NCBI GenBank assembly: GCA_021404785.1
Contig: QWHH01000003.1
Span: 62,001-126,000, forward strand
Source: Lysobacterales bacterium PRO7
GTDB lineage: Bacteria; Pseudomonadota; Gammaproteobacteria; Xanthomonadales; Rhodanobacteraceae
DNA: 64,000 bases
Reading direction: 5' to 3'
Positions 1 to 4,492 of this stretch are shown piece by piece. Position numbers and translations under genes: made by a program. The stretch's first letter is position 1, and every line of letters begins with the position of its first letter. Under the pieces are notes generated by a model. It was given only the letters and a program-made list of their open reading frames with translations, was not told the origin of the DNA and did not search any database.

Positions 1-2567
1 TTGCGGACGCATCCGGACCGACATTCCGCGACGCAATCTTCGAACAATACAAGGCGCATCGCCCGCCGATGCCGGACGACCTGCGTGCACAGGTCGATCC
101 GATGCTGGAACTGGTCGGCGCACTGGGTTTCCCGATCCTGCGCGTGGCGGGAGTCGAAGCCGATGACGTGATCGGCACGCTCGCCGTGCAGGCGGCGGCG
201 CAAGATATCGACGTGGTCGTGTCCACCGGCGACAAGGACCTGGCGCAACTGGTAAACGAACGCATCACGCTCGTCAACACGATGACGAATTCGACTCTGA
301 ATCCGGAAGGCGTGGTGGCGAAGTTCGGCGTGCGCCCGGACCAGATCGTGGATTACCTCGCCCTGGTCGGCGACAGTGCGGACAACATCCCCGGCGTGCC
401 CAAGTGCGGCCCGAAGACCGCGGCGAAATGGCTGGGCGAATACGGCTCGCTCGATGCCATCGTCGCGAACGCGGACAAGATCAGCGGCAAGATCGGCGAA
501 TCCCTGCGCGCCGCACTGCCGCAACTGCCGATGTCGCGCCAGTTGGCGACGATCAAGACCGATGTGGAATTGGACGTAAAGCCATCCGGGCTGGCATTCC
601 ACGATCCGGATACGCAAAAACTGCGTGCGTTGTACTCGCGCTATGAATTCAAGGCGGCGTTGCGGGAACTGGATGCGAAAGAAGGTCCCGCCGAAACCGG
701 ACCAGCGTCGCAAGCCGTCGCGCATGGGTCAGCAGAATCCGCACCGGCGCAACCGGCAAATCGGAGTTACGATCTCGTCCTCACGCAGGATCACTTCGAC
801 GCCTGGCTGGAAAAACTTCGTGCTGCGCCGTTGATCTGCATCGATACCGAAACAACAAGTCTTGATCCGATGCGCGCGGAAGTCGTCGGCGTGTCGTTTT
901 CGGTTGAGCCCGGTCATGCGGCGTACGTTCCCGTCGCGCACGACTATCCCGGCGCGCCGGCGCAGTTGTCGCGCGATGCGGTACTCACTGCGCTCAAACC
1001 GCTGCTGCAAGATGCGCAAAAACCCAAGCTGGGCCAGCACGCCAAGTACGACATGAACGTGTTGTCCAACTACGGCATCGCCGTCCGCGGCGTGCGTTTC
1101 GACTCCATGCTCGAATCCTACGTGCTCAATTCTTCCGGCAACCGCCACGACATGGATTCGCTGGCGAAAAAATATCTTGGCGTCGACACCATCCACTACG
1201 AAGACGTGGCCGGAAAAGGCGCGAAACAGATTTCGTTCGCGCAGGTGGACGTGCTGCGCGCAGCCGAGTACTCCGCCGAGGACGCCGACATCACCCTGCG
1301 CCTGCATCAGGCGTTGTGGCCGAAACTTGATGCCGAGCCGAAGCTGCAAAAGGTGTTCGACGAGATCGAGATGCCGCTGGTACCCGTGCTTGCGCGCATG
1401 GAGCAGACCGGCGTACTGATTGATGCAGCCAAGCTGAAACAGCAGAGCAGCGAACTTGGCAAGCGCATGCTGGAAATCCAGCAACAGGCATTCGCGATCA
1501 CCGGGCGCAACTTCAACATGGATTCGCCGAAACAGTTGCAGGCGCTGCTGTACGAAGAACTGAAACTGCCGGTGTCGATCAAGACGCCGACCGGCCAACC
1601 TTCCACGAATGAAGAAGCGCTTGAAGGCTTGGCCGATCAACACGAACTACCGCGCCTGATCCTCGACTACCGCACTCTGGCGAAGTTGCGCTCGACGTAC
1701 ACCGACAAGCTGCCGGAAGCGGTAAATCCGCGCACGGGGCGCGTGCACACGAGCTATCACCAAGCGGTCGCGGCGACAGGACGGCTATCGTCGAACGATC
1801 CGAACTTGCAGAACATTCCGATTCGCACCGAAGAAGGCCGGCGCATCCGCCAAGCCTTTGTCGCGCCGTCGGGATTCAAGATACTCGCCGCCGACTACTC
1901 GCAGATCGAGCTGCGCATCATGGCGCATCTATCCGGCGATGCCGGCCTGCTCGCGGCGTTCCACGGCGGGCAGGATGTGCACCGCGCTACCGCGTCAGAA
2001 GTATTCGGCGTGCCGCAAGAACAAGTGGACGCGAACCAGCGCCGCGCGGCCAAGGCGATCAATTTCGGGCTGATGTACGGCATGAGCGCCTGGGGTCTGG
2101 CGCGCCAGCTCGGCATCGACCGCGGCGAGGCGAGCGCCTACGTCAAAACCTATTTCGAGCGTTATCCGGGCGTGCAGGCATTCATGAATGCGACGCGCGA
2201 GCAGGCGCATCGCGACGGCTACGTCGAAACCTTGTTTGGCCGGCGCCTGTACTTGAACGAAATCAACTCGCGCAACCAGGGCCTGCGCGCCGGCGCCGAA
2301 CGCGCGGCGATCAACGCGCCGATGCAGGGCACCGCAGCCGACATCATCAAGCGCGCGATGATCGCGGTGGACACCTGGTTGCAATCATTGGATGGCGCGG
2401 CACGCATGATCATGCAGGTGCACGACGAACTCGTGTTCGAGGTGCGCGACGATGTGATTGCGCAGATAACCAATGGCGTGCGCGTACGCATGATGGATGC
2501 GGCGAAACTCTCGGTGCCGCTGATTGTCGATATTGGAACGGGATTCAACTGGGATGAGGCCCATTGA
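1..2567 (+). CDS. polA: DNA polymerase I (5' end outside window)
   Basis: Family A DNA polymerase I, which fills gaps and removes RNA primers during replication and repair. The reading frame is open from base 3, so the true start lies upstream. The visible part holds the end of the 5'-3' exonuclease domain (GDSADNIPGVP). A 3'-5' exonuclease domain follows with its DTET acidic motif near base 843, so proofreading looks intact. The polymerase domain has motif A (DYSQIELRIMAHLSGD), motif B (RRAAKAINFGLMYG) and motif C (QVHDELVFEV). The C-terminus is complete. The next feature downstream is a small RNA, as in Xanthomonas. Confidence 0.97.
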   Translation, partial: ADASGPTFRDAIFEQYKAHRPPMPDDLRAQVDPMLELVGALGFPILRVAGVEADDVIGTLAVQAAAQDIDVVVSTGDKDLAQLVNERITLVNTMTNSTLNPEGVVAKFGVRPDQIVDYLALVGDSADNIPGVPKCGPKTAAKWLGEYGSLDAIVANADKISGKIGESLRAALPQLPMSRQLATIKTDVELDVKPSGLAFHDPDTQKLRALYSRYEFKAALRELDAKEGPAETGPASQAVAHGSAESAPAQPANRSYDLVLTQDHFDAWLEKLRAAPLICIDTETTSLDPMRAEVVGVSFSVEPGHAAYVPVAHDYPGAPAQLSRDAVLTALKPLLQDAQKPKLGQHAKYDMNVLSNYGIAVRGVRFDSMLESYVLNSSGNRHDMDSLAKKYLGVDTIHYEDVAGKGAKQISFAQVDVLRAAEYSAEDADITLRLHQALWPKLDAEPKLQKVFDEIEMPLVPVLARMEQTGVLIDAAKLKQQSSELGKRMLEIQQQAFAITGRNFNMDSPKQLQALLYEELKLPVSIKTPTGQPSTNEEALEGLADQHELPRLILDYRTLAKLRSTYTDKLPEAVNPRTGRVHTSYHQAVAATGRLSSNDPNLQNIPIRTEEGRRIRQAFVAPSGFKILAADYSQIELRIMAHLSGDAGLLAAFHGGQDVHRATASEVFGVPQEQVDANQRRAAKAINFGLMYGMSAWGLARQLGIDRGEASAYVKTYFERYPGVQAFMNATREQAHRDGYVETLFGRRLYLNEINSRNQGLRAGAERAAINAPMQGTAADIIKRAMIAVDTWLQSLDGAARMIMQVHDELVFEVRDDVIAQITNGVRVRMMDAAKLSVPLIVDIGTGFNWDEAH

Positions 2568-2675
2568 GAAGCGCGCAAGTAATTGAATTTCAAGTGGATG
2601 AATGATTTCTGAACCGGCGAGTGTAATCAAGCGTAAAACCTTGAACTTTATGTCCTCAGGCGTCATCTAACTCGT

Positions 2676-2798
2676 CAGGTGCACGCAACGGCACCTGGTT
2701 GGTTCACCTCCCTGAGCCAACCGCGAAGGCCGATCCCTCCCCTGATTGGCCTTCGACCCACGGCCCCGAGAGTTCCCCCTAACTCTCGGGGCTTTTTT
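2676..2798 (+). ncRNA. sX13: sX13-like small RNA with C-rich hairpin loops
   Basis: A chain of four hairpins fills the space after polA. Stem 1 is 2676-2682/2691-2697. Stem 2 is 2697-2706/2713-2722, with loop CCTCCC. Stem 3 is 2725-2735/2744-2754, with loop CCTCCCCT. Stem 4 is 2763-2774/2781-2792, with loop CCCCCT, and a T6 tract follows. Stems 2 and 3 each keep pairing through a single G-U wobble. Known: Xanthomonas sX13 is an Hfq-independent RNA of about 115 nt with C-rich loops, encoded next to polA; it pairs with G-rich leaders and affects virulence genes. Inferred: this is its homologue. The 5' end is not certain; a possible -35 (TTGAAC, 2641) and a weak -10 near 2665 would place it near 2676. 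Confidence 0.82.
2763..2798 (+). terminator. Intrinsic terminator of the sX13-like RNA
   Basis: A perfect 12-bp stem (2763-2774 with 2781-2792) and a six-base loop are followed by six T. The loop is CCCCCT, so the terminator hairpin is also one of the C-rich regulatory loops. Confidence 0.9.
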
Positions 2799-2864: not shown

Positions 2865-3629
2865 TCAAGCAAGATAACCCCCATCCACGGCGAAGCTTGC
2901 GCCGGTGATGTAACTCGCCGCGGGCGAACACAGGAACGCGATCATCGGCGCGATTTCCTCCGGCTGCGCGGCACGGCCGAGCGGAATCGCGCGCAGCAGC
3001 GGTTTGAGGATTTCCGGATCGCCGGTCAGCGCACTGGCGAATTTCGTTTCGGTGAGTCCCGGCAGAACCGCGTTGACGCGGATGCCGGAAGGCGCCAGTT
3101 CGCGCGCGAAGGATTCCGTCATCGACAAAATCGCCGCCTTGGTCATCGAGTAGACGGCCTGCCCGGGTGCGGCGCGGCGGCCGTTGACGGAAGCCACGTT
3201 GACGATCGCGCCGCCGCGTTCGCGCATCGCGCGCGCCGCGAGCTGAGAAGTGTAGAAATATCCGCGAACGTTGACGGCGACGGTTTTGTCGAACGCCGCC
3301 ATCGGCATGTCCGGTACGGGGCCGAAATACGGATTGGCGGCGGCATTGTTGACGAGGATGTCGGGCGACAGACCGCGCTGCGCCATCTGCGCGAACAACG
3401 CTTCGATGGATTGAGCCTCGCCGATATGCGCGGCGATCGCGACGGCCTTGCCCCCATCTCCGACAATCTGTGCCACGATGGCCTCGCAGGCATCCTGCCG
3501 TCGGCTGGATACGATCACTTGTGCTCCGCAGCTCGCCAGCAGTCGCGCTGCCGCGAGGCCGATGCCGCGGCTGGCGCCCGTGACCAACGCCGTCTGGCCA
3601 CGCAAATCGAAGAGTGTGTCTATCGTCAT
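2865..3629 (-). CDS. Short-chain dehydrogenase/reductase (SDR)
   Basis: Classical SDR oxidoreductase of about 254 aa; the substrate cannot be told from sequence. The N-terminal Rossmann motif is TGASRGIGLA, the NNAAAN segment follows, and the catalytic Tyr/Lys pair lies in VYSMTKAAI. The C-terminus has the usual SDR ending with YITGASFAVDGGYLA. The start at MTIDTLFD was chosen over a longer frame because a GAGG-type ribosome site precedes it and the extra residues are not SDR-like. It is divergent from the second SDR gene, so the 59-bp gap probably holds both promoters. Confidence 0.85.
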   Translation of the reverse strand: MTIDTLFDLRGQTALVTGASRGIGLAAARLLASCGAQVIVSSRRQDACEAIVAQIVGDGGKAVAIAAHIGEAQSIEALFAQMAQRGLSPDILVNNAAANPYFGPVPDMPMAAFDKTVAVNVRGYFYTSQLAARAMRERGGAIVNVASVNGRRAAPGQAVYSMTKAAILSMTESFARELAPSGIRVNAVLPGLTETKFASALTGDPEILKPLLRAIPLGRAAQPEEIAPMIAFLCSPAASYITGASFAVDGGYLA

Positions 3630-3688
3630 CGTGGGTAGCCTCGAATCTGGCATAGAATTCGAGCATAGCAAACTCGGAGGCTGACGCC

Positions 3689-4492
3689 GTGGCGGAGAAA
3701 CGCGTAGTCATCACCGGCGCCGGCAGCGGGCTCGGCCGTGCACTGGCGTTCCGTTTTGCCGAACACGGCTGGCGCGTGGCCTGCGCGGATATTCGTCTGG
3801 ATCGCGCACAGGACACCGTGCGCCTGATGCGCGAGTTTGGCGTCGGCGCGATGGCGCTGAAGGTCGATGTCGGCAGCGATGCCTCGGTGGACGCGATGCA
3901 CGACGAGATCCTGGCCGCCTGGGATGGCGTCGACGTGGTCGTCAACAACGCCGGCGTGGCCAGCGCCGGAAGCGTTGCGCAAACTCCGCTTGACGATTGG
4001 CGCTGGACGCTCAACATCGACCTGATGGGCGTGGTGCGCGGCTGCCACGCCTTCCTGCCGGTGCTGCTCGAACAAGGCAGCGGCCACATCGTCAACATCG
4101 CCTCGTTCGCCGGCTTTGCCAACGCACCACGCATGGGCGCCTATTCGGCGGCCAAGGCCGGCGTGATTTCGCTTTCGGAAACGCTGCGCGCCGAACTCGC
4201 CGGCAGTGCGGTCAAGGTGTCGGTCGTTTGTCCCGCCTTCTTTCCGACCAATCTGATGGACACGGCGCGTGCGCCGGCAGCCGACAAGGCAACCGCGAAA
4301 AAATTCATGGCCAATGCCACACAGAGTGCAGACGATGTCGCGGCCATCGTCTTTCGCGAGATCCTGCGCGGCACGTTCCTGATCCTGCCGACGAAAGGCG
4401 AGCGCGGCCGCTGGCGCATCAAGCGTTACGCACCAGAACTGTTTTTCCGCAAACTCGTGACGATGGCTGCCAAGACGGCAGGCAAGCCATGA
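3689..4492 (+). CDS. Short-chain dehydrogenase/reductase (SDR)
   Basis: SDR family enzyme of 267 aa with cofactor motif TGAGSGLGRALA, NNAG, and the catalytic YSAAK motif near residue 151. The long C-terminal tail (RFRRL-like basic helix, ending FRKLVTMAAKTAGKP) may associate with membrane lipid; this is inference. It starts with GTG preceded by a clear GGAGG at 3677. The stop codon overlaps the next start as ATGA, so it is cotranscribed with the saccharopine-dehydrogenase-like gene. The natural substrate is unknown. Confidence 0.85.
   Translation: MAEKRVVITGAGSGLGRALAFRFAEHGWRVACADIRLDRAQDTVRLMREFGVGAMALKVDVGSDASVDAMHDEILAAWDGVDVVVNNAGVASAGSVAQTPLDDWRWTLNIDLMGVVRGCHAFLPVLLEQGSGHIVNIASFAGFANAPRMGAYSAAKAGVISLSETLRAELAGSAVKVSVVCPAFFPTNLMDTARAPAADKATAKKFMANATQSADDVAAIVFREILRGTFLILPTKGERGRWRIKRYAPELFFRKLVTMAAKTAGKP

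Follow-up and report, generated by a model that had tools for sequence, protein, structure and literature searches.

A conserved small RNA gene downstream of polA in Lysobacterales bacterium PRO7, most likely a relative of Xanthomonas sX13

The small RNA sX13 (Rfam RF02232) is described as regulating virulence in a plant pathogen; it represses mRNAs with a G-motif, hfq included, without the need for Hfq (PMC3771888). Its loops 1 and 2 are reported to carry CCCC and its loop 3 CCCCC, and its 5′ region is given as unstructured; a variant shortened by 14 terminal nt could still complement the plant phenotype, and sX13 is upregulated in Xanthomonas with salt, at 37°C and in minimal medium (PMC3771888). 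For the validated target hfq, repression of an hfq::gfp fusion in Xanthomonas needs the 4C motif of loop 2 and the G-motif of the leader, and combined changes of loop and leader failed to restore the regulation (PMC3771888). The excerpts of this 2013 paper name Spot 42 and alpha-r7 at polA, contain no mention of RpoE or of a sigma factor for sX13, and leave open whether the polA loci of other bacteria encode related sRNAs.

In two Pseudomonas loci, the place downstream of polA is taken by ErsA (Rfam RF01719; 133.7 bits in L227 and 134 bits in L241). ErsA is reported to be strictly sigma-22-dependent (PMC7565897). Hfq is described as not needed for its action on amrZ (PMC5819304) and, in another source, as needed (PMC8575079).

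In the window, i.e., the whole stretch of 64,000 nt that was analyzed, an sRNA gene was predicted as the next gene downstream of polA, with 109 nt between the polA stop (2567) and the predicted start of the RNA. In all likelihood, this locus codes for a conserved regulatory sRNA that is related to Xanthomonas sX13. The following features were annotated:

69..2567, + strand: polA (DNA polymerase I), from the ORF list; 832 aa of polA lie inside the window
2598..2614, + strand: 11-bp direct repeat ATGAAT-N5-CTGAAC, candidate site of putative OmpR/PhoB type
2642..2648, + strand: −35 box TGAACTT, sigma-E type (identical heptamer upstream of the genome's own rpoE; motif statistics)
2665..2670, + strand: −10 box ATCTAA, spacer 16 (motif statistics in homologues)
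2677..2798, + strand: predicted sRNA, about 122 nt (fold; Rfam sX13, 48.4 bits over 2687-2798)
2677..2696, + strand: HP1, 5′ hairpin AGGUGC-A-CG-CAA-CG-GCACCU, outside the Rfam sX13 model; conserved apex, covarying stem
2697..2722, + strand: HP2, loop CCUCCC (CCTCCC at 2707-2712) within CACCUCCCUG; corresponds to sX13 stem-loop 1
2724..2755, + strand: HP3, loop CCUCCCCU (DNA CCTCCCCT, 2736-2743); corresponds to sX13 stem-loop 2
2762..2798, + strand: HP4 (2762-2793) and T6, intrinsic terminator with loop CCCCCU (CCCCCT at 2775-2780); corresponds to sX13 stem-loop 3

The first-pass annotation had placed an sX13-like RNA at 2641..2798, with four hairpins, a T6 terminator and the C-rich loops CCTCCC, CCTCCCCT and CCCCCT. 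The architecture was recovered as claimed. The stretch 2677-2798 folds into four hairpins followed by T6 at 2793-2798 with an MFE of −70.7 kcal/mol, compared to −37.0 ± 3.2 for 200 dinucleotide shuffles, none of which was as stable (z −10.43), and HP4 with its T-run was picked up by a terminator scan. The interval had to be divided: 2677-2798 is the predicted RNA, 2641-2676 is promoter region, and folding of the full 2641..2798 gives z −8.39. From the position of the −10 box, the transcript probably starts near 2677. Downstream of the sRNA, two divergent frames, 2865-3671 (−) and 3689-4492 (+), resemble short-chain dehydrogenases by eye; the former is convergent with polA, and the sRNA sits between polA and this frame. 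Among the best 80 of at least 590 loci found with the polA query, the closest named PolA belongs to a Rudaea MAG (80% identity), followed among named genera by Rhodanobacter, Dyella, Luteibacter and Frateuria (69-70%).

At the family cut-offs of Rfam, no match was found in the window. A permissive search of 2500-2900 gave sX13 as the best match, over the whole model length and with 48.4 bits, which is below the gathering cut-off of 50 bits. The proposal of an sX13-type RNA behind polA, for which a covariance search had been suggested, stands on the full-length best match and on orthologues that exceed the cut-off, the window sequence itself remaining under it. Of seven copies from the same genus, four pass (L004, L007, L008, L010), whereas L001 (48.4 bits), L003 (47.8 bits) and L002 (38.6 bits) stay below the cut-off. 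In one set, 16 of 20 loci tested passed, including 14/16 from Xanthomonadaceae and 2/4 from Rhodanobacteraceae (best L111, 141.2 bits); in a set of 16 Rhodanobacteraceae loci, 14 match sX13 at E 0.01, with seven above the cut-off. Examples of passing scores within Rhodanobacteraceae are 61.0 bits in L012, 56.3 in L007, 55.9 in L008, 55.4 in L010 and L048, 54.9 in L030, and 54.0 in L004. Our own models, R1 (29 pairs only, because variable-length stems misalign in MAFFT) and R2 (based on an explicitly specified structure), score the sRNA of the window at 121.9 and 120.9 bits, but its sequence is itself among their building rows. The genome holds a single copy of the sRNA, with one blastn place and one R1 match and no second R1 match, and a REP-like repeat was ruled out on these grounds.

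With sX13 (RF02232; PMC3771888) the RNA shares the position behind polA, the size, the full-length Rfam alignment and three stable stems, each with a C-rich loop at its tip and the third being an intrinsic terminator. Loops 2 and 3 agree in carrying CCCC and CCCCC, and a G-box in the hfq leader recurs within Rhodanobacteraceae. In contrast, the HP2 loop reads CCUCCC, without the 4C motif that loop 1 of sX13 carries, and the window RNA has a 5′ hairpin, a sigma-E-type promoter and the 11-bp repeat, in a genome without a match to HrcV. Two other families share CCUCC-type loops and a terminator and give sub-threshold matches in both the window and its relatives, namely alpha-r14 (RF02344; 43.8 bits, cut-off 58.8) and anti-hemB (RF02837; 28.3 bits, cut-off 49.5); they differ in having been described from Alphaproteobacteria and Burkholderia.

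The 5′ hairpin lies at the edge of the described family. The Rfam sX13 model begins within the HP1 loop, and its start AACGCC is the 3′ part of CAGG(C/U)GCAACGCCUG in Xanthomonadaceae, a hairpin whose loop is CAA. For the window RNA a covarying 5′ hairpin is predicted, and a like one is encoded by Xanthomonadaceae, whereas the 5′ region is called unstructured in the sX13 paper (PMC3771888). We infer from these sequences that the annotated sX13 may be a 5′-shortened species.

A blastn match was obtained in 80 of 98 Rhodanobacteraceae genomes. The C-rich loops, whose absence from related polA-downstream regions had been named as evidence against the first-pass proposal, recur: the HP1 apex CAACG followed by the CTCCC loop is present in 69/70 Rhodanobacteraceae loci (30/30 and 39/40), the exception being L051. 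Across 62 aligned sequences, neither TCCCC in HP3 nor CCC in HP4 varies, and CACCUCCCUG of the HP2 region is almost invariant in the family. From the 70 loci, L003, L051 and L068 were left out of alignment A1; eight were left out of alignment A2, mostly via a sequence-end rule (L013, L026, L037, L039, L042, L051, L055, L063).

In the HP1 outer stem, six positions pair in 66 to 69 of 69 sequences, which had been chosen for the apex, with U-A/C-G and A-U/G-C exchanges. Alignment A5, 16 rows selected for alignable geometry, was evaluated with the explicit structure, and 25 of 43 pairs are changed on both sides, with compensatory changes in all four stems. Cells with changes on both sides number 97, compared to 35.6 in shuffles (0/500 as high), and pairing cells amount to 91.2% vs. 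81.4% in shuffles and at most 49.6% with the partner slid, a control biased toward structure because the pairs were taken from the fold of the window sequence itself. One of five measures was flat (further pair types, 47 vs. 49.0 in shuffles). The G-U pairs cited earlier as a sign of selection do exist, one each in HP2 and HP3; wobbles in a single sequence are weak evidence, and it is the comparison of relatives that indicates selection on the structure.

The promoter was analyzed in the same comparative way. No sigma-70-type site was found in 2500-2900. The genome contains rpoE (321.7 bits) with TGAACTT-N15-GTCTAT upstream. Sigma-E scores were taken from 75 aligned homologues, with same-genome copies and model rows included and with shared ancestry, so that the following counts are not independent. 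With GGAACTT as the −35 and GTCTAA as the −10, 51/75 homologues reach at least 10 of 13 positions, compared to 1.5% of shuffles. Of the 57 homologues scoring at least 9, 52 have the −10 box at a distance of 5-7 nt from the model start. With boxes from the rpoE leaders of the genus, 40/75 homologues reach at least 10 of 12 (0.8% of shuffles); these leaders carry (T/G)GAAC(T/C) and a TCT box at about the same spacing in nine of nine readable cases (ten tried), a count without a shuffle control, the weakest being L255 with TGAACCA...GTCTTT. The sigma-E sRNAs MicA and RybB act by Hfq-dependent seed pairing with omp mRNAs, and they are not known to have a three-loop C-rich arrangement. Their likeness to the locus lies in sigma-E boxes before an intergenic sRNA gene (PMC1804206). 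Published sigma-E boxes are GGAACTTTT and GTCAAA (PMC1804206) or about GGAACTT and TCAAA (PMC12153292). When scored with the published pair GGAACTT/GTCAAA, 40/75 homologues reach the threshold vs. 2.1% of shuffles.

Under a different reading, the sX13-type sRNA would be transcribed from a housekeeping or heat-shock (sigma-32-like) promoter, without a link to envelope stress. CTTGAA in L001, L004 and L007 and CCCCATCTAA in L012, L016 and L017, which we take to be parts of the sigma-32 consensus, fit this reading, as do TATA-like −10 regions in most Xanthomonadaceae copies. However, 2500-2900 holds no sigma-70-like site, sigma-70 hexamers are unenriched in the homologues (3/75 with a score of at least 9 out of 12, compared to 3.4% of shuffles), GNAAC(T/C)T and TCT recur in most clades, and the distant loci L126, L131, L133 and L138 show GGAACTT-N16-GTCTNA. 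The boxes of these distant families have the textbook form (GGAACTT-16-GTCTCA in L126, GGAACTT-16-GTCTGA in L131, GGAACTT-16-GTCTAT in L133 and L138). We consider the reading unlikely.

A conserved −35/−10 motif at the right spacing, as expected for a member of the sigma-E regulon, is present in homologues and weak in Xanthomonadaceae, where 14/17 rows score 9 or less, so that the model organism itself fits poorly. Most Xanthomonadaceae copies (L107-L120) have CACGAACC-like and ATATAG-like upstream sequence and no clear sigma-E boxes, and the upstream sequence of the named Xanthomonas loci L184 and L188 is like that of the low-scoring rows. Promoter control has probably shifted in most Xanthomonadaceae, the direction of the shift being our inference. 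Within a single genome the motif proves nothing, since GGAACTT-N16-GTCTAA with at most two mismatches gives eight sites, not including that of rpoE, vs. 48 for the reversed control; the case therefore rests on conservation, and no regulon was drawn. A strict pattern, GAACTT-N16/17-TCTAA, was rejected as a regulon finder, as it occurs once in the genome, at the sRNA, and its reversed control also once.

Upstream of the promoter, a TGAA-N7-T(G/A)AA repeat precedes 58/121 homologues, compared to 0.4% of mononucleotide shuffles; other repeat spacings (16 tried) reach at most 11/121. It is located 65-68 nt or 76-79 nt before the model start, positions about one helical turn apart, and the exact ATGAAYNNNNNCTGAAY of the window repeat occurs only once in the genome. 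The 11-bp period fits a tandem-binding response regulator, for which the repeat is a candidate site.

The RNA might also be no more than the 3′ region of polA, with hairpins ahead of a terminator, or an sRNA released from the polA mRNA by processing. Its start about 110 nt after the polA stop and its good terminator are compatible with that. Against it stand the promoter motif and the upstream repeat, both conserved and both located between polA and the RNA, the near invariance of the loops and the HP1 apex, which a terminator does not need, and homologues that face polA (L132, L141, L300), and this origin appears very improbable. Such an orientation was observed in G513 (L300, L311), L132 and L141.

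Of 200 genomes examined from the order, 124 contain a related gene according to R1. In the 60 R1 loci read, polA lies upstream on the same strand in 33 and on the opposite strand in two; 25 have no polA within about 2 kb on each side, and 11 of these 25 are the second-copy loci L143-L153. Of the 80 named polA loci, the top-scoring ones of at least 590, 48 contain an R1 match with E ≤ 0.01, most of them titled Xanthomonadales. Matches with other family titles are L216 (Ectothiorhodospiraceae), L221 (Chromatiaceae) and L222 (Woeseiaceae), and six are titled only Gammaproteobacteria or gamma symbiont (L187, L202, L211, L219, L229, L242). In L169 the match lies 2.9 kb behind polA. Eight R1 matches have E values of 0.01 to 5, of which six lie at most 600 nt behind polA on its strand, a placement rarely expected by chance, and two (L190, L199) are located elsewhere than directly behind polA. 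R2 matched 17 of 274 genomes of the class, 14 of them outside the order; the best loci of these 14 have polA upstream on the same strand in ten cases, on the opposite strand in one (L300) and not within about 1.5 kb in three. Eight f9 genomes (G105, G115, G123, G130, G136, G142, G148, G154) gave no R1 match and are among the non-matching genomes listed, to which 56 others have to be added; f9, a family of the order, may be without this gene.

For the RNA's targets, the leaders of hfq were inspected, the gene being present in the window's genome. GGGG within 25 nt of the start was seen in 25 of 30 Rhodanobacteraceae hfq leaders read (41 genomes matched) vs. 10/103 in the background, and AGGGGAG, the complement of the HP3 loop, in 10/30 vs. 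0/103; the background includes leaders picked for GGGAGG, and the hfq leaders are mutually related. The hfq leader of the genome itself has GAGGGAG and no GGGG; its perfect complementarity to HP2 or HP3 extends over 6 nt, and complements of at least 6 nt to the HP2 and HP3 loops occur in 3/27 and 4/27 other window leaders.

GGGAGG-N4-10-ATG was discarded as a target list, its 51 sites (10 in the control) being mainly ordinary ribosome-binding sites. Loci were available for 30/51 sites, and 27 were scored after L270, L276 and L277 were dropped (frames of 6 to 41 aa). Thirteen of these 27 genes look exported, compared to 58/241 in a 464-kb sample (p 0.011, uncorrected), with a home-made predictor and with at least L271 and L283 resembling nucleotide-binding folds by eye. 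Within the 464-kb sample, genes with GGGAG/GGGG leaders are exported-like in 12/26 vs. 46/215 cases (p 0.013), the only one of five motif choices below 0.05 (the other four, p 0.09 to 0.56). A Pfam search of ten of the 27 genes identified, among others, a cytochrome c554, a DUF1800 protein, an M48 peptidase and a phosphatase of the PhoD-like type. A lean of these genes toward exported proteins is suggestive only.

The RNA could instead be a decoy that binds the ribosome or a protein as a general partner, not particular mRNAs. The HP2 region UCACCUCCCUGA resembles the anti-Shine-Dalgarno tail of 16S rRNA (presumably UCACCUCCUUA) and might therefore compete for such a partner, and the near invariance of CACCUCCCUG in the family would agree. 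Xanthomonadaceae copies, however, carry UCCCAUCCCCUGG or similar in the HP2 loop. Furthermore, sX13 acts on reporters via particular loops and leader G-motifs, though the compensatory changes failed to restore regulation (PMC3771888). A decoy is improbable.

Our main reading, with a probability of about 0.62, is a free-standing, trans-acting sX13 orthologue under sigma-E control that represses mRNAs with G-rich ribosome-binding sites. The comparisons show the gene, its structure, the promoter motif, the relation to sX13 and the hfq G-box of the family, and transcription by RpoE, the start site, pairing and repression are proposed. Under envelope, heat or salt stress, RpoE (sigma-E) would transcribe the sRNA from about 2677, perhaps assisted by a regulator at the 11-bp repeat. 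Transcription would end at HP4, and the compact RNA would expose three C-rich loops. Through these it could base-pair with ribosome-binding sites that are rich in G (AGGGGAG, GGGAGG, AGGGGG) and thereby prevent translation. The best-supported target would be hfq, via HP3, followed by other mRNAs, perhaps many for exported proteins.

If this holds, sX13 relatives belong to the envelope-stress response, the RNA is tied to general stress control rather than virulence, the annotated 5′ end of sX13 is probably that of a shortened form, and the question of 2013 about sRNAs at polA loci gets a concrete answer. A role beyond type III secretion, raised in the first-pass annotation, is supported, since HrcV, a type III export protein and the single marker used, has no match in the genome. 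This idea is not new, because the 2013 paper already gives sX13 homologues for Stenotrophomonas and Pseudoxanthomonas (PMC3771888). Compared to the first-pass annotation, the present analysis adds the promoter of stress type, the hairpin at the 5′ end, the 11-bp repeat, the G-box of hfq and the distribution of the gene. Novelty with respect to the literature is provisional: in a search with poor coverage of subscription papers, only the sX13 paper combined "downstream of polA" with an sRNA and a sigma factor, no paper treating ErsA and sX13 together was found, and none among the matches listed dealt with sigma-E control of sX13.

What is shown for ErsA and the window sRNA is a common location and a like type of promoter, not homology of sequence. 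By eye, ErsA is alike in TGAACTTTC...GAGTCA before it and in a C-rich terminator loop; it differs in an unstructured U-rich domain (PMC8575079). ErsA (Pseudomon-1) is absent from the 11 matches of 2500-2900 at E values up to 10. Our own models gave no significant match to ErsA: R1 gave 13.5 bits (E 1.2) on L227 and nothing on L241, R2 nothing on either, and the third Pseudomonadaceae-titled locus, L236, matched neither model. L226 (Pseudomonadales) matches weakly both ErsA (29.9 bits, E 0.074) and R1 (19.4 bits, E 0.057), and not R2. It is conceivable, if doubtful, that sX13 and ErsA are surviving branches of one ancient lineage of sigma-E-controlled sRNAs with C-rich loops behind the gammaproteobacterial polA. 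Its original job would have been to couple envelope stress to the translation of G-rich leaders and to the Hfq level, with the promoter rewired in most Xanthomonadaceae and the RNA there drawn into virulence control.

Weak second R1 matches revealed another C-rich, terminator-ending sRNA-like gene away from polA in 11 Rhodanobacteraceae genomes (L143-L153), with a like match in G232. Its promoter-like boxes read GAACT...CTAA and its 5′ hairpin TCGCC...GGCGA, and its neighbors differ among three loci inspected. L154 and L155, also weak second matches, were discounted, having no promoter boxes by eye and no polA. Finally, two or three sRNA copies lie close together in L187, L220, G443:C33 and G513:C15.
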